A stretch of 37,408 nucleotides of DNA from a virus, in IMG/VR virus record IMGVR_UViG_3300021599_000693, positions 1 through 37,408 of that record, one strand, 5' to 3'. Below, piece after piece: positions 6,554 to 34,122 of the stretch. The notes beneath the pieces are model-generated. The model was given only the letters and a program-made list of their open reading frames with translations, was not told the origin of the DNA and made no database searches. Numbering within the stretch: position 1 is the stretch's first letter; the number at the start of each line of letters is the position of its first letter. Both the position numbers and the translations under genes were made by a program.

Positions 6554-8265
6554 GCAACGGCATTAAAGTTCAAAAACGTGATGGCAGTATTGAAGCTTTA
6601 AATCTAGATAAGATTCATCGTATGGTAGATGAAGCTTGTGATGGACTTGCTGGAGTTTCTGCCTCACAAGTAGAAATGAATTCGGGGATTCAATTCTATG
6701 ATGGCATTACTACAGCGGAAATTCAAGAAATTCTGATTCGTTCTGCTAGTGATTTAATTTCTCTAGATAATCCTAATTATCAATTCGTAGCTGCCCGTCT
6801 TCTTTTGTTTGCTCTTCGTAAACAAGTGTTCCATAAAAACATTTGGAAAGAAGGTATGCCTGGCATTTATGATGTAGCTCTTTATAATTCAACTGTATTG
6901 AAAGTGTACGACGAAGAAATTCTCGACAAATACGCTGATGAAGATTGGGCAAAAATTAATAGTTGGATTGATCATGATCGTGATTATCTATTTTCCTATG
7001 CTGGTTTACGTCAAGTAGTTGATAAGTATCTTGTACAAGACAGGAGCAGTGGAGATATTTACGAAACTCCTCAGTATATGTACATGATGATTGCTTTAAC
7101 TCTTTTTGCTGAATATCCCCTGTCAGTAAGATTAGATTACGTTCGCCGTTACTACAATGCCATCAGCAAGCACAAGATCAACATCCCCACGCCAATCATG
7201 GCAGGAGTTAGAACAACCCTTAGACAATTTGCTAGTTGTGTTCTCATTGATTCTGATGACACCCTCAATAGCATCTTTAGCAGCGACATGGCTATTGGGC
7301 GTTATGTTGCTCAAAGGGCGGGCATCGGCATCAACGCTGGTAGAATCCGTGGAGTCAACAGTAAGATCCGAGGGGGAGAAGTTGCTCATACAGGGGTTAT
7401 CCCATTCCTCAAAAAGTTTGAAGCAACTGTCAGATGCTGTACACAAAACGGGATTCGTGGTGGAAGTGCTACTGTCCACTTTCCAATCTGGCACCAAGAA
7501 ATAGAGGACATTATTGTTCTCAAAAATAACAAAGGAACGGAGGACAACCGTGTACGCAAACTCGATTATTCCATTCAGATCTCGAAGATCTTTTACGAAA
7601 GGTTCATTCAAAATGGAGAGATCACCTTATTTTCTCCCCATGATGTCCCTGGTCTTTATGATGCTTTCGGCACTGATGAGTTTGATAATTTGTATACCTC
7701 TTACGAATCAGATCCTTCAATCCCAAAGAAGCGAATTGGTGCTCAAGAATTAATTCTCGACCTTCTCAAAGAACGTGCTGAGACTGGTCGTATTTACATC
7801 ATGAATATTGACCACTGTAATACACATTCTTCTTTCAAAGATAAAGTTTACATGTCCAATCTGTGTCAAGAGATTACCCTTCCTACAGATCCTCTTGAGC
7901 ATATTGATGGTGATGGTGAGATTGCTCTTTGTATTCTTTCTGCTATTAATGTCGGTAAGCTTAAGAACTTAGATGAACTTGAAGAACTTTGTGATCTTGC
8001 TGTTCGTGGTTTGGAAGAACTGATTGATTATCAGAACTATCCAATTAAAGCTGCCGAACTATCTACCAAGAATCGTCGTTCACTTGGTATTGGCTACATT
8101 GGTCTTGCTCACTATCTTGCTAAACACGGAGAACATTATGACGATCCAAAAGCATGGAAACTCGTCCACGACCTTACTGAAGCTTTCCAGTACTATTTGC
8201 TCAGAGCATCAAATGCCATTGCCCAGGAAAAAGGAGCCTGTGGATATTTTGATAGTCAGCTATGA
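6550..8265 (+). CDS. nrdA: Ribonucleotide reductase class Ia, large subunit NrdA, main part (disrupted gene)
   Basis: 571 residues: ATP-cone at about 5-95, then the ten-stranded barrel. Catalytic residues are visible: C230 in QFASCVLIDSDDTL, N437/C439/E441 in SNLCQEI (thiyl radical loop) and C461. The frame ends at TGA 8263-8265 just after GACGYFD. Compared with E. coli NrdA, about 27 residues between this point and the YDWE motif are missing, and the remainder lies in another frame. NrdA makes dNDPs for phage replication, and nrdB follows directly. Confidence 0.92.
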   Translation: MSNGIKVQKRDGSIEALNLDKIHRMVDEACDGLAGVSASQVEMNSGIQFYDGITTAEIQEILIRSASDLISLDNPNYQFVAARLLLFALRKQVFHKNIWKEGMPGIYDVALYNSTVLKVYDEEILDKYADEDWAKINSWIDHDRDYLFSYAGLRQVVDKYLVQDRSSGDIYETPQYMYMMIALTLFAEYPLSVRLDYVRRYYNAISKHKINIPTPIMAGVRTTLRQFASCVLIDSDDTLNSIFSSDMAIGRYVAQRAGIGINAGRIRGVNSKIRGGEVAHTGVIPFLKKFEATVRCCTQNGIRGGSATVHFPIWHQEIEDIIVLKNNKGTEDNRVRKLDYSIQISKIFYERFIQNGEITLFSPHDVPGLYDAFGTDEFDNLYTSYESDPSIPKKRIGAQELILDLLKERAETGRIYIMNIDHCNTHSSFKDKVYMSNLCQEITLPTDPLEHIDGDGEIALCILSAINVGKLKNLDELEELCDLAVRGLEELIDYQNYPIKAAELSTKNRRSLGIGYIGLAHYLAKHGEHYDDPKAWKLVHDLTEAFQYYLLRASNAIAQEKGACGYFDSQL

Positions 8266-8788
8266 TTGGGAAGAACTTAGAGCATCGATCTTGGCTCACG
8301 GTCTTAGGCACTCAACATTGTCCGCACAGATGCCATCGGAGAGCAGCTCCGTTGTGTCAAACGAAACTAATGGAATCGAACCTCCTAGAGATTACTTGTC
8401 CGTTAAGAAATCAAAGAAAGGACCTCTCAAGCAGATTGTCCCCTCTTATCAATCTCTTAAGAACAACTATACGCTTCTTTGGGATATGCCTGACAATACT
8501 GGTTATATCAATATTGTTGCTGTTATGCAGAAGTTCTTTGATCAGGCAATCTCGGGTAACTGGTCGTATAATCCAGAAAATTATGCCGATAATGAAGTAC
8601 CTGTGTCGGTAATGGCTCAAGACTTTTTAAATACTTATAAGTATGGTTGGAAAACTTCTTACTATCAAAATACTTATGATGCTAAGAAAGATGAGCCAAT
8701 TGATGAACAGAAAAAACAGGATATTGAATCCATGCTTGACGAACTACTAAACCTACAGGAGGATGATTGTGACAGTTGTAAAATTTAA
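8261..8788 (+). CDS. nrdA: NrdA C-terminal part in a shifted frame (disrupted gene)
   Basis: There is no start codon of its own: the homologous sequence begins with YDWEELRASILAHGLR and runs to the redox tail DDCDSCKI. It includes the STLSAQMPSESSSVVSN phosphate-binding motif, NGIEPPR, and the radical-transfer tyrosine pair in SYYQNTYD. This part is essential for NrdA activity and is only useful if joined to the preceding frame. The break centres on ATAG/CTAT (8252-8263). It overlaps the long form of nrdB by 26 bp. Confidence 0.88.
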   Translation, partial: YDWEELRASILAHGLRHSTLSAQMPSESSSVVSNETNGIEPPRDYLSVKKSKKGPLKQIVPSYQSLKNNYTLLWDMPDNTGYINIVAVMQKFFDQAISGNWSYNPENYADNEVPVSVMAQDFLNTYKYGWKTSYYQNTYDAKKDEPIDEQKKQDIESMLDELLNLQEDDCDSCKI

Positions 8789-9953
8789 ACTCAACGAAGA
8801 ACCCATGAGCCACATTCAAGGAATGACTGTTTTTAATACAGAACAAGTCAATACTCTAAAACAACCGATGTTCTTTGGTGCCCCCTTGGGGGTCCAAAGA
8901 TACGATCAGTTTAAGTATCCAGTCTTTGATAAGCTGACTCAACAGCAACTTGGGTATTTCTGGAGACCAGAAGAAGTTTCACTTCAGAAAGATCGAGCTG
9001 ATTTTCAATCACTTCGTCCAGAGCAAAAGCATATTTTCACTGCTAATCTGAAGTATCAGATTCTTCTTGATTCTGTACAGGGGCGTGGTCCTAGTATGGC
9101 ATTCGCCCCATACTGTTCTCTTCCTGAACTTGAAGCTTGTATGAAAGTTTGGGAATTCATGGAAATGGTTCATAGTCGTTCTTATACTTACATCATTAAA
9201 AACGTTTATCCTGATCCAACTGAAGTATTCAATACCATCATTCACGATGAGCAAATCCTTCAACGTGCTCAGAGTGTAACTAAAGCATATGATGAGTTTA
9301 TCCAGGCAGCTCAAAATTATTCTTCTGGCAATCAGTGGCAGCATCAATTAGAAGGTGTTCCTGCTGCTCAAGATACTCTTTATGAACTAAAGCGTAAACT
9401 CTATCGTGCCGTTGCTAACGTTAATATCCTTGAGGGTATTCGTTTCTATGTTTCGTTCGCTTGCTCATTTGCTTTTGGTGAACTCAAACTCATGGAAGGC
9501 AATGCTAAGATTATTGGTCTCATTGCTCGTGACGAATCTCAGCATCTGGTTATCACTCAGAACATTCTAAACAAATGGCATAGTGGTGATGATCAAGACA
9601 TGGTGAAAATTGCTAAAGAAGAGGAGCAAACTGTCTATGATATGTTTAGGCAGTGTGTTGAGGAAGAGAAGCGTTGGGCAGAATATCTTTTTAAAGATGG
9701 TTCTATGATTGGTTTGAATGCTAAACTACTTCAAAAGTATGTTGAGTGGACAGCTAATCGTCGTCTGAAAGCAATTGGTCTTAATCCAATCTTTGATGCT
9801 CCTTTGAATAACAATCCACTTCCATGGACTGAGCATTGGTTATCTTCTAAAGGTCTCCAGGTTGCTCCCCAAGAAACAGAAGTCGAATCTTATGTTATTG
9901 GTGGTCTTAAACAAGACGTAACTAAAGATACTTTCGCTGGTTTCCAGCTATAA
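8763..9953 (+). CDS. nrdB: Ribonucleotide reductase class Ia, small subunit NrdB
   Basis: An intact diiron-tyrosyl subunit. In the 396-residue form the iron ligands and radical site are D103 (LLDSVQG), E134 and H137 with tyrosyl radical Y141 (MEMVHSRSY), then LEGIRFYVSFACSFAF and RDESQHL. The start is uncertain. AGGAGG (8757-8762) directly abuts ATG 8763 but is ideally spaced (6 nt) for GTG 8769. Family alignment suggests the core begins at MTVFNTEQV (ATG 8823), and ATG 8805 is also possible. It pairs with NrdA to supply dNTPs. Confidence 0.94.
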   Translation: MIVTVVKFKLNEEPMSHIQGMTVFNTEQVNTLKQPMFFGAPLGVQRYDQFKYPVFDKLTQQQLGYFWRPEEVSLQKDRADFQSLRPEQKHIFTANLKYQILLDSVQGRGPSMAFAPYCSLPELEACMKVWEFMEMVHSRSYTYIIKNVYPDPTEVFNTIIHDEQILQRAQSVTKAYDEFIQAAQNYSSGNQWQHQLEGVPAAQDTLYELKRKLYRAVANVNILEGIRFYVSFACSFAFGELKLMEGNAKIIGLIARDESQHLVITQNILNKWHSGDDQDMVKIAKEEEQTVYDMFRQCVEEEKRWAEYLFKDGSMIGLNAKLLQKYVEWTANRRLKAIGLNPIFDAPLNNNPLPWTEHWLSSKGLQVAPQETEVESYVIGGLKQDVTKDTFAGFQL

Positions 9954-9961
9954 ATCGAATA

Positions 9962-9969
9962 GATAAATA
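9962..9969 (+). promoter_or_regulatory. Late promoter GATAAATA abutting a terminator/RBS hairpin
   Basis: T4-type late core 8 bp after the nrdB stop. With the usual geometry (motif from -13 to -6) transcription starts at about 9975. That is immediately after the 5' arm of the next hairpin, so late RNA would lack that arm. Confidence 0.7.
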
Positions 9970-9989
9970 CCTCCGTAAGGAGGTTTTTT
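9969..9989 (+). terminator. Intrinsic terminator that also sequesters a Shine-Dalgarno
   Basis: ACCTCC (9969-9974), loop GTAA, GGAGGT (9979-9984), then T to 9989. The 3' arm AAGGAGG is itself a near-perfect ribosome binding site 9 nt before ATG 9993. Read-through RNA from nrdAB would therefore be terminated, or have the site masked. Confidence 0.85.
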
Positions 9990-9992
9990 ATT

Positions 9993-10331
9993 ATGAGAGT
10001 ACAATCAGCGAAAGCAAAAGGTCGTCGTCTTCAGCAATGGGTTCGTGATAAACTTATTGAAATGTTAGATGTTCATCCCGAAGACATTGAATCCAGATCA
10101 ATGGGAGCTGGCGGAGAAGATTTAATTATGGCTAGAGCAGCTAGACAAAAGTTTCCTTACAGCATTGAATGTAAAAATGTAGAAAAATTAAATGTTTGGG
10201 AAGCATACGAACAAGCTCAAGCAAACTCAGGTGATTATGAACCAATTGTTGTCATGAAAAAGAATGGCAAAAAGCCATTGGTCGTAGTAGATGCCGAGTA
10301 TTACATTCAACTTCACGGAGAAAAACAATGA
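9993..10331 (+). CDS. PD-(D/E)XK endonuclease/resolvase-like protein
   Basis: 112 residues. The nuclease core is visible as SMGAGGEDL (E42, D43) followed by YSIECKN (E59-x-K61) and a C-terminal Gln-rich helix. This is the layout of small PD-(D/E)XK nucleases such as Holliday-junction resolvases and VRR-NUC-like proteins. A DNA-processing role late in infection is inferred. Its start is set by AAGGAGG inside the upstream hairpin. Its stop overlaps the peptidase ATG (ATGA), so it is translated with the endolysin. Confidence 0.7.
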   Translation: MRVQSAKAKGRRLQQWVRDKLIEMLDVHPEDIESRSMGAGGEDLIMARAARQKFPYSIECKNVEKLNVWEAYEQAQANSGDYEPIVVMKKNGKKPLVVVDAEYYIQLHGEKQ

Positions 10332-11032
10332 AAATTACATTACAAAATTTCTTTGAACACTTTGATAAGAATAATCCTAATCACGTAAAAGCAGTTCAAT
10401 TGTTTTTACAAGCTCTAGAAAAATCAGCACCAGAAGAACTAGAAGATACTTCTGGCTGGGTTAAAACATTCAGAACACCTGTTCAAAAACAAGCAAGCAA
10501 TATCTTAGAAAACTTTCCTTGGTTTCCTCAGACAGATAATTATAGAGATGCTCAGAGAACTTGTAATAGTTCTGCCTGTGCTATGTGTCTAGAGTATTTG
10601 AAACCAGGCACACTCAAAGGATCCAAAGGTGATGATGCTTATGTTCAAAAAGTATTTGCTACAGGTGATACCACAGATCATACAGTTCAAACTCGTGTGT
10701 TGATGTCGTATGGTATCAACTCTGCTTTCAGATATAATTTAACTTTTGCTGATCTTGATCGTGAACTTGCTGCCAAACGTCCAGTGGTAATTGGCATCCT
10801 TCACAGGGGGTCTCTAGCAGCCCCTACAGGCGGTCATATGGTTGTTGTGGTCGGGAAGACCCCATCAGGCGACTACATCGTTCACGACCCTTATGGAAGC
10901 CTTAACGACGGCTATACGGGTCCTGTAACAAATGGTAAGGGAGCAGTCTATAAACGTTCTGAGCTAGCTCGTAGATGGTGCCCTGGCGGCAATGATGGTT
11001 GGGGTAGAATTTTTGATGCTGTAAAAAAGTAG
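10328..11032 (+). CDS. C39-like cysteine peptidase domain (short form of the endolysin)
   Basis: 234 residues. The papain-like triad is visible: Cys in RTCNSSACAM, His in GGHMVVVVG, Asp in IVHDPYG. This is the C39-like/NlpC-type fold, expected to cut peptide bonds in peptidoglycan. The N-terminal 75 residues are helical. The frame ends in AAA AAG TAG, where A AAA AAG is a classic -1 slippery heptamer. The lysozyme domain follows in the -1 frame, so this ORF may be only the unshifted product. It overlaps the nuclease gene by ATGA. Confidence 0.8.
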   Translation: MKITLQNFFEHFDKNNPNHVKAVQLFLQALEKSAPEELEDTSGWVKTFRTPVQKQASNILENFPWFPQTDNYRDAQRTCNSSACAMCLEYLKPGTLKGSKGDDAYVQKVFATGDTTDHTVQTRVLMSYGINSAFRYNLTFADLDRELAAKRPVVIGILHRGSLAAPTGGHMVVVVGKTPSGDYIVHDPYGSLNDGYTGPVTNGKGAVYKRSELARRWCPGGNDGWGRIFDAVKK

Positions 11033-11062: not shown

Positions 11063-11499
11063 TCATCAAAGAATTTGAAAGTTGCCATTTAAAATCATAT
11101 CCAGATCCGAAAACTGGTAGAGAACCAATCACTATTGGTTGGGGAAGTACTAAAGATTTTGATGGCAGTCCTTTTAAACTTGGAAGAGTTATCACACAAA
11201 AGTATGCTGATACTCTATTTGATTTTGATTTGAAAAATAGATTCCTTCCACAACTTATAAAAATACCATATTGGAGCGAAATGAATGACAATCAAAGAGG
11301 GGCTTTACTTTGCTTTGCTTATAATCTTGGTGGAGATTTTTATGGTCATCCTGACTTCAATACTATTACGAGGGTCTTGAAGAATAAAGAATGGTCTAAA
11401 GTACCTGATGCCCTTTATCTTTATAGAAATCCTGGTAGTAATGTAGAGGCAGGATTAGCGAGAAGAAGAAAAGCAGAAGGAAAACTTTGGGTTTCTTAA
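11029..11499 (+). CDS. GH24 lysozyme domain of the endolysin, -1 frame (fusion spans 10328-11499)
   Basis: The domain reads GVELIKEFESCHLKSY, then PITIGWGST, and ends NPGSNVEAGLARRRKAEG. The T4-lysozyme-type catalytic Glu (KEFES), Asp (YPDP) and Thr (ITIGWG) are present. The frame is closed just upstream by TGA 11014-11016. No ATG, GTG or TTG occurs before TTG 11230, which lies past the catalytic residues, so independent initiation of a working domain is unlikely. A -1 slip at A AAA AAG gives a peptidase-lysozyme fusion of about 390 residues that would cleave both the peptide and glycan parts of the host wall. Confidence 0.85.
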   Translation, partial: VEGSTLTAGVELIKEFESCHLKSYPDPKTGREPITIGWGSTKDFDGSPFKLGRVITQKYADTLFDFDLKNRFLPQLIKIPYWSEMNDNQRGALLCFAYNLGGDFYGHPDFNTITRVLKNKEWSKVPDALYLYRNPGSNVEAGLARRRKAEGKLWVS

Positions 11500-12483: not shown

Positions 12484-12491
12484 CATAAATA
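12484..12491 (+). promoter_or_regulatory. Late promoter CATAAATA overlapping a terminator
   Basis: The expected start near 12497 falls inside the 5' arm of the next hairpin (12494-12499), so late RNA would lack half of that arm and read through. This is the same logic as at 9962-9989. Confidence 0.65.
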
Positions 12492-12493
12492 AT

Positions 12494-12521
12494 GGGGAGT
12501 GCTGCAGACCTCCCCTTTTTT
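12494..12521 (+). terminator. Intrinsic terminator after the RlpA-like gene
   Basis: GGGGAG (12494-12499) pairs with CTCCCC (12510-12515) and is followed by six T (12516-12521). The loop contains CTGCAG. Confidence 0.85.
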
Positions 12522-12923
12522 ATGAACCTCAAACAAAAAACAATTAGGTTTGCTATTATTGGTATTACATTAACAACAATCGTAGCATCTCTTTCAAAAT
12601 GTACAGGTATTGATGAGAAACATCTTTATGATCTGTTTGATGAAATTCAAAGAAAGTATTTCCCAAATACTGAATTGAACGAATACATTATCAAAGATCC
12701 TAAACTTTTAGACAATAGAGTTAAGCGTGATGTTGACAAAGCAATAGCTGAGTATGAACGCTTGACAGGAGACGATGGAACTGTTAGAATTCCACCACCA
12801 CGACGTTCAGAAAAACCAGTAGACACTTCGGTGTGCTACACTCCTGAATGTCAAGCACTTGGAGGAGAAATCCGACTCTGTGCTCCATGGGTTGACAACT
12901 GCCCATTGGATGTGGTAAAATAA
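12522..12923 (+). CDS. Membrane-anchored hypothetical protein (133 aa)
   Basis: The likely start is ATG 12522 just after the T-tract. An upstream in-frame ATG (12492) would lie before the late start site and encode terminator sequence. Residues 8-23 (IRFAIIGITLTTIVASL) form a membrane anchor or signal. Then come a helical region (LYDLFDEIQRKYFPN), a Pro/Arg linker and a C-terminal cysteine cluster (CYTPECQALGG, CAPWVDNC). A periplasm-facing domain with disulfides is inferred. No clear Shine-Dalgarno is seen. Confidence 0.65.
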   Translation: MNLKQKTIRFAIIGITLTTIVASLSKCTGIDEKHLYDLFDEIQRKYFPNTELNEYIIKDPKLLDNRVKRDVDKAIAEYERLTGDDGTVRIPPPRRSEKPVDTSVCYTPECQALGGEIRLCAPWVDNCPLDVVK

Positions 12924-15663: not shown

Positions 15664-16031
15664 TGAAACTAATCAAGTATTGGAAAAATAGACCAAGGAC
15701 CCGCCAAGGGTGGATTGATCTTTATATTTCATACTTGAAAAGGATACCAGAGAGGCAATACTTTCCAATCTTTGTATTGCTCTCTCTGTATTTCGTAGTT
15801 CCGTATAGTGAGTTTGTAGTCACTGCTCTCATACCACTATACTTTATCTTCGAGAAACAAGTTCGCTGGCTCTGTAGTAAGATCCCAATGCCAGATTATT
15901 TAAGGATAGGTGGATCAGTTATATTCTTTTTGGTTATGATTGATGACTACCTGTTTTACTTTGCTATCATGGCATTTGCTGCTTGGAGTGCCAAACAAGT
16001 AAGTAAAAGAAAGCAAAATGATGAAGAGTAG
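15663..16031 (+). CDS. Membrane protein (122 aa)
   Basis: It starts in a TGATG overlap with the porin gene, so both are co-translated. The N-terminus is basic, followed by hydrophobic segments at about 33-50 (YFPIFVLLSLYFVVPYSEF), 52-66 and two near the C-terminus (IGGSVIFFLVMIDDYLFYFA, IMAFAAWSA), then a charged tail. No family is recognised. Coupling to the porin suggests a linked envelope role. Confidence 0.65.
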   Translation: MKLIKYWKNRPRTRQGWIDLYISYLKRIPERQYFPIFVLLSLYFVVPYSEFVVTALIPLYFIFEKQVRWLCSKIPMPDYLRIGGSVIFFLVMIDDYLFYFAIMAFAAWSAKQVSKRKQNDEE

Positions 16032-16056
16032 GGAGGCTTGACATCCTCCCTTTTTT
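16031..16056 (+). terminator. Intrinsic terminator with TTGACA in its loop
   Basis: GGGAGG (16031-16036) pairs with CCTCCC (16045-16050), followed by six T. The loop CTTGACAT holds the -35 box of the next promoter. Confidence 0.9.
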
Positions 16057-16066
16057 CATATATACT
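16038..16066 (+). promoter_or_regulatory. Early sigma70-like promoter TTGACA-17-TATACT
   Basis: Consensus -35 TTGACA (16038-16043), exact 17-bp spacer, -10 TATACT (16061-16066). Start expected near 16073, 20 nt before the hli gene. The -35 lies inside the terminator loop, so this unit ends one transcript and starts the photosynthesis cassette. Confidence 0.9.
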
Positions 16067-34081: not shown

Positions 34082-34086
34082 TTTAG

Positions 34087-34112
34087 AGAGGGGTTGACAC
34101 CCCTCTTTTTTT
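34087..34112 (+). terminator. Intrinsic terminator with TTGACA loop
   Basis: AGAGGGG (34087-34093) pairs with CCCCTCT (34100-34106), with loop exactly TTGACA and seven T ending at 34112. It closes the riboswitch operon. Confidence 0.92.
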
Positions 34113-34122
34113 GTGTTATGAT
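34094..34122 (+). promoter_or_regulatory. Early sigma70-like promoter TTGACA-17-TATGAT inside a terminator
   Basis: -35 TTGACA (34094-34099) is the terminator loop, the 17-bp spacer contains the 3' arm and T-tract, and -10 is TATGAT (34117-34122). Start near 34129, ahead of the 34146 gene and thyX. Confidence 0.88.

Follow-up and report, generated by a model that had tools for sequence, protein, structure and literature searches.

Several genes of bacteriophage T4, including e, soc, 49 and those of intron endonucleases, are preceded by hairpins that silence the early RNA, while the RNAs initiated at late starts are open (PMC3014915, PMC2988022). The hairpin of gene e represses the early read-through RNA about 100-fold, and gene 49 is named among the hairpin-regulated genes (PMC3014915). 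In T4 segB, I-TevI, I-TevII and I-TevIII, and in mobE of phage Aeh1, the late promoter is positioned in such a way that the late RNA drops the arm that hides the ribosome binding site (PMC2988022). Few T4 genes are known to use the switch, and according to a T4 review no gene e was present in the cyanophages sequenced by then.

Here we describe a leader of this kind in a fragment of a T4-like cyanophage that includes nrdAB, psbA, phoH and a thymidylate synthase gene among others (IMG/VR record IMGVR_UViG_3300021599_000693, positions 1 to 37,408; this whole stretch of 37,408 nucleotides is referred to as the window). The leader is probably the cyanophage counterpart of the e/49 switch of T4, a reading to which we assign a probability of about 0.7. 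What would be new is the presence of the switch in abundant marine cyanophages, where unrelated genes for resolvases and nucleases carry it together with a terminator-like U-tract. If this is true, a single compact device serves T4-like phages to restrain enzymes of DNA cutting and of lysis, and it would keep apart the early and late expression of genes that lie within early operons. The element is also a sequence signature for locating such genes, and phage S-PM2, whose homologue is located at about 115170 to 115200 of NC_006820.1, is a cultured carrier.

Structure of the nuclease leader

The leader (GATAAATACCTCCGTAAGGAGGTTTTTTATTATG) is located between nrdB (nucleotides 8763 to 9953) and a nuclease ORF that starts at 9993, all on the plus strand. 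As nrdA-nrdB are directly upstream on the same strand, the nuclease gene lies downstream of presumed early/middle genes. The segment 5'-GAATAGATAAATACCTCCGTAAGGAGGTTTTTTATTATG includes, in this order, a late promoter core, the two arms of a hairpin with the loop between them, a run of T residues and the ATG. The core, GATAAATA, occupies nucleotides 9962 to 9969 and has matching cores in related phages. It is of the gp55 type, defined by TATAAATA near −10 with a weakly conserved T at −13. The T4 late consensus TATAAATA spans positions −13 to −6 (PMC1524935), and consequently the predicted late +1 is nucleotide 9975, the first base of the loop. The hairpin ACCTCC-GUAA-GGAGGU consists of a 6-bp GC stem between nucleotides 9969 and 9984 followed by the U-tract. 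The 5' arm (9969 to 9974), which co-varies with the 3' arm, is predicted to be missing from the late RNA; the loop (9975 to 9978; GTAA in the DNA) is of the GNRA type; and the 3' arm (9979 to 9984) includes the Shine-Dalgarno sequence GGAGG (9979 to 9983), 9 nt from the ATG at 9993. A9969 is used twice, as the final base of the core and as the opening base of the 5' arm, where it pairs with the first of the six T residues (9984 to 9989). The GC-rich 6-bp stem, the loop of four bases and the tail TTTTTATT have the sequence characteristics of an intrinsic terminator. A preliminary description of this DNA had placed the end of the core at 9969, had taken the 3' arm of the ACCTCC-GTAA-GGAGGT hairpin, followed by the T-tract, as the Shine-Dalgarno sequence of the gene at 9993, and had located the late start at about 9975, just past the 5' arm; the sequence agrees with the first two statements and the position rule leads to the same predicted start.

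By computed folding, the ribosome binding site of the read-through RNA is paired within the hairpin. The 22-nt hairpin alone has a folding energy of −9.6 kcal/mol, which was equalled by 1 of 200 shuffles, and the values for the complete leader are −15.1 kcal/mol (z −3.2) in the read-through RNA versus −0.5 in the predicted late RNA. The mean unpaired probability of the ribosome binding region (−14 to −5) is 0.20 in the former and 0.47 in the latter; the promoter-derived AUAAA is also paired in the read-through RNA, with the T-tract beside the start codon. Octamers that differ from GATAAATA by at most one mismatch occur 88 times in the window, 70 being expected, and a bare octamer of this kind is weak evidence in AT-rich sequence; it is the combination of elements and its conservation that carry the case. 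Core, 6-bp GC stem, T-tract and ATG were found together once in the window and in none of 300 dinucleotide shuffles, a result that, with the contrast between start-codon and other hairpins given below, rules out an artefact of base composition. A search of Rfam matched nothing relevant.

Comparison with the T4 leaders

By sequence comparison T4 gene 49 can be considered the nearest twin of the leader. In the gene 49 leader (AATAAATACCCTTATCTATTTAAGGTAAGGGTTTATTATG) the core abuts the 5' arm directly (AATAAATACCCTTA...TAAGGGTTTATTATG), the 3' arm carries the ribosome site, the late RNA would drop the 5' arm, and the gene, which codes for a Holliday junction resolvase, is located downstream of early genes; the cyanophage leader has the same arrangement, before a gene that is likewise labeled a resolvase. 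On the other hand, endonuclease VII belongs to an unrelated nuclease family, and the gene 49 stem is longer, AT-richer and followed by UUUAUU rather than by U6. The leader of the lysozyme gene e shows the same contact between core and arm (TATAAATACCT...AGGAGGTATTATG), but it has two late promoters and no T6, and, unlike e, the cyanophage lysis gene occupies the second place of its operon, with an exposed Shine-Dalgarno sequence of its own. The segB leader, also scored here, has the same layout with a late RNA that lacks the hiding arm, although segB, I-TevI/II/III and Aeh1 mobE are homing endonucleases and not resolvases. The pairs lost by late initiation were 11.9 for e, 10.6 for 49 and 13.0 for segB, used as positive controls, and about 10 for the cyanophage leader. 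The gene e logic put forward in the preliminary description thus holds as to anatomy and likeness to T4, except that the closest T4 case is 49 and not e. With ordinary intrinsic terminators the element shares a GC stem followed by a U-tract; it differs from them in that the promoter core extends into the 5' arm, the ORF starts less than about 10 nt from the stem, and the upstream stop codon is close. Scans with a T4-style pattern ending in ATTATG, with no T-tract, gave zero matches.

Conservation in related phages

Leaders were compared in 80 IMG/VR loci of the nuclease gene. The order core, hairpin, T-tract and ATG is kept behind differing upstream genes and with differing stems (CCTCC/GGAGG, CCCCT/AGGGG, CCTTC/GAAGG and CCCC/GGGG), and the geometry is conserved in about 25 distinct cyanophage leaders while the stem co-varies. 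TAAATA is invariant in all 28 leaders that were aligned; 95% of the stem cells of this alignment are paired, four of the six pairs have changed on both sides, and the covariation score was reached by none of 500 shuffles. A late core is located near the start in 39 distinct leaders of the nuclease family, and in 37 of these the predicted start cuts the pairing, a few of the 37 being weak or not abutting. The spacing between promoter and hairpin, which the preliminary description had proposed to compare among related phages, is clearly maintained, as it is in T4 e, 49 and segB.

The element is missing in the 31 leaders of the nuclease gene that have no late core. S-CAM1, Syn1, S-RIM32, S-H9-2 and other phages do not have the element, and in them the gene overlaps other small genes or comes after them. 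That many phages carry the nuclease gene without the element counts against the switch; the gene lacks a late core there. AT-rich leaders (L150, L166, L154 and L175) retain core and hairpin, lack the T-tract and have TTGACA/TATAAT-like boxes upstream. S-H34 has core, hairpin and T-tract, and its 3' arm is CCCCTC, which is not a Shine-Dalgarno sequence. In phage MA01 (L216, 1320 to 2001), compared with S-H34 (L215), a homing endonuclease gene with its own late core separates the promoter-hairpin element from the start of the resolvase gene, lying exactly between the two.

When the window was examined together with about 120 related stretches, an abutting late core was found at 23 of 35 terminator-like hairpins in contact with a start codon and at 4 of the 201 other terminator-like hairpins (p 2e-19), even though both sets have A-rich flanks. 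By this contrast the late core is not merely a terminator A-tract, and mimicry of a promoter by such a tract is rejected. The hairpin begins between −3 and +2 from the end of the core, out of 34 possible offsets, in 61 of 95 cases in which core, hairpin and an ORF start codon occur together, a count that includes many homologous leaders. When late-core leaders were ranked by the pairing lost on late initiation, the nuclease leader was first or second of 12 to 56 in each of five genomes, which indicates a specific rather than a general device; a rule for all late promoters was not supported, the mean pairing cut in S-PM2 being 2.1 versus 2.07 in shuffles. Some high scores elsewhere came from facing late-promoter pairs (TAAATA...TATTTA) and were set aside. 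Such facing cores, separated by about 20 nt and flanked by divergent genes, are found in Syn9 (L229, 5154 on the plus and 5174 on the minus strand) and S-H34 (L245, 2466 and 2479, respectively), where the RNAs should overlap at their 5' ends.

Proposed mechanism and alternatives

In the proposed switch, RNA reading through from nrdAB would keep the whole hairpin, with the Shine-Dalgarno sequence and much of the T-tract paired to promoter-derived sequence, and the nuclease gene would be poorly translated from it; the GC-rich hairpin and U6 could additionally act as an intrinsic terminator. After the beginning of DNA replication, the phage-modified polymerase with a gp55-type late sigma factor would start at about 9975, within the loop, and the late RNA (GUAAGGAGGUUUUUUAUUAUG), having neither terminator nor blocking arm, would be translated. 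The persistence of promoter and hairpin in the AT-rich leaders that lack the T-tract suggests that the ribosome site is hidden, although the 3' arm of S-H34 shows that hiding is not universal. Pairing with the Shine-Dalgarno sequence is possibly less needed in marine cyanobacteria than in E. coli. The nrdB stop codon is 15 nt from the hairpin, and a stop codon is located 2 to 26 nt before the hairpin in 39 of the 39 leaders in which one was found. In E. coli, ribosomes repress terminators close to a stop codon, tR2 being almost fully repressed at several bp and attaining its full strength at more than about 27 nt (PMC4824070). In view of these distances hiding may outweigh termination, and ribosome-site hiding, with partial termination, would be the likelier main function.

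The element could instead be a terminator fused to a late promoter, in which the hairpin ends nrdAB transcription, the promoter restarts it downstream, and the Shine-Dalgarno sequence lies in the 3' arm by economy, with no regulatory hiding. The GC stem with U6, the terminator form of S-H34, the second leader of the window (at 12484), which has the same form, and the −35 boxes that this phage nests in terminator loops (at 16038 and 34093) are in favor of this explanation. We nevertheless regard it as unlikely, as the stop codons are at distances at which terminators are repressed in E. coli (PMC4824070), the geometry persists in the AT-rich leaders without a T-tract, and T4 49 and e show it without T6. 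That there is no late promoter, the TAAATA core being just the A-rich flank of an intrinsic terminator, is very improbable: TAAATA-like octamers are common in AT-rich DNA and terminator A-tracts pair with T-tracts, but the contrast between hairpins at start codons and elsewhere, the strict TAAATA in 28 of 28 aligned leaders and the AT-rich leaders without a T-tract all argue against it. Hairpins at RNA ends often slow decay, and the structure could chiefly stabilize RNA, either the nrdAB transcript at its 3' end or the downstream transcript at its 5' end, rather than set timing; this possibility also seems remote, given that no 5' hairpin remains in the predicted late RNA and that a role at the 3' end leaves the fixed spacing to the late core unexplained.

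The nuclease and endolysin genes

The ORF at 9993 to 10331 codes for a 112-amino acid nuclease labeled in phrog_244 as a RusA-like Holliday junction resolvase, and the PHROG label is the only source of the RusA assignment. The protein has a conserved E42-D43 ... E59-x-K61 pattern and a match to Pfam PDDEXK_15 below the cut-off; its structural model is of low confidence and gave no significant PDB match, the weak top neighbors including archaeal Hjc and tRNA-splicing endonucleases, with no RusA among them. We tentatively consider it a PD-(D/E)XK/Hjc-like rather than a RusA-like enzyme, as suggested by sequence pattern and model. The next ORF (10328 to 11032), which overlaps the nuclease stop codon (ATGA), is the N-terminal part of an endolysin by its profile matches (Peptidase_C39_2; phrog_3617/10051), and the lysozyme-domain C-terminal part (Phage_lysozyme) is found at 11230 to 11499. 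The endolysin thus appears as two ORFs about 200 nt apart, peptidase-like and then lysozyme-like; phrog_3617 is a single 405-amino acid protein, and a split in S-PM2 resembles that of the window.

The endolysin ORF has its own unhidden GGAG (10317 to 10320). The hairpin alone therefore does not hide its Shine-Dalgarno sequence, and timing of the whole operon would require termination or translational coupling. Control of the complete nuclease-endolysin operon by the hairpin is accordingly less certain. An endolysin ORF overlapping by ATGA comes next in many of the phages that bear the element. The element is present in 18 of 19 leaders with endolysin as the next gene and in 19 of 51 others (Fisher p 1e-5; S-H34 and L173 are not counted as endolysin neighbors), the latter fraction excluding an exclusive link to endolysin. 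In several of the others with the element the next gene belongs to phrog_591, whose product is secreted and has an HExxH motif.

Other genes preceded by the element

Pattern scans of viral contigs found the device before 52 copies of the nuclease gene and also before genes for a RuvC-like resolvase (phrog_159), T4-type endonuclease VII, SegE-like and other GIY-YIG enzymes, HNH enzymes and an SNase, as well as the structural genes for a head-tail adaptor, terminase and gp25, which rule out an exclusive link to nucleases. The early and late folding energies at these other genes match the model. Nucleases represent about 8 of 36 protein clusters with the device and about 5 of 72 control late genes, a suggestive bias in sets that are not genome-matched and with controls from 25 of 35 families. 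T4-like phages may have repeatedly and independently put genes of DNA-cutting enzymes, among them three or more unrelated resolvase families (phrog_244, RuvC-like phrog_159 and endonuclease VII) and GIY-YIG/HNH endonucleases, behind one terminator and ribosome-site-lock device of about 35 bp, with a late promoter that starts the RNA inside the hairpin, a generalization that is conceivable and that we offer with some doubt. Matches with AAATACCCTCAAATATGAGGG before MKKIILL genes were excluded as a separate repeat. A repeated leader, ATAAATACCCTCAAATATGAGGGTATTTTTATGAAAAAGATTATTTTA, precedes many lipoprotein-like ORFs that are alike in their first residues only (L398, L403, L404, L410, L454 and others) and resembles a shared cassette start.

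Sequence, folding and scans identified a second late-promoter/hairpin leader in the window (12484 to 12521, plus strand), with the core CATAAATA at 12484 to 12491, arms GGGGAG (12494 to 12499) and CTCCCC (12510 to 12515), T6 and an ATG at 12522. Its 3' arm is not a Shine-Dalgarno sequence and the predicted start, 12497, is within the 5' arm. In the region 12484 to 12923 it precedes a phrog_3316 ORF of unknown function, after a lytic-transglycosylase-like gene, and it recurs in related loci. At 16030 to 16066 and 34085 to 34116 of the window a terminator-like GC hairpin carries TTGACA in its loop, with −10-like boxes (TATACT and TATGAT) exactly 17 nt after TTGACA and the T-tract in the spacer; both may be read as early promoters located within terminators. 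L254 has a comparable arrangement near 7011 on the minus strand.
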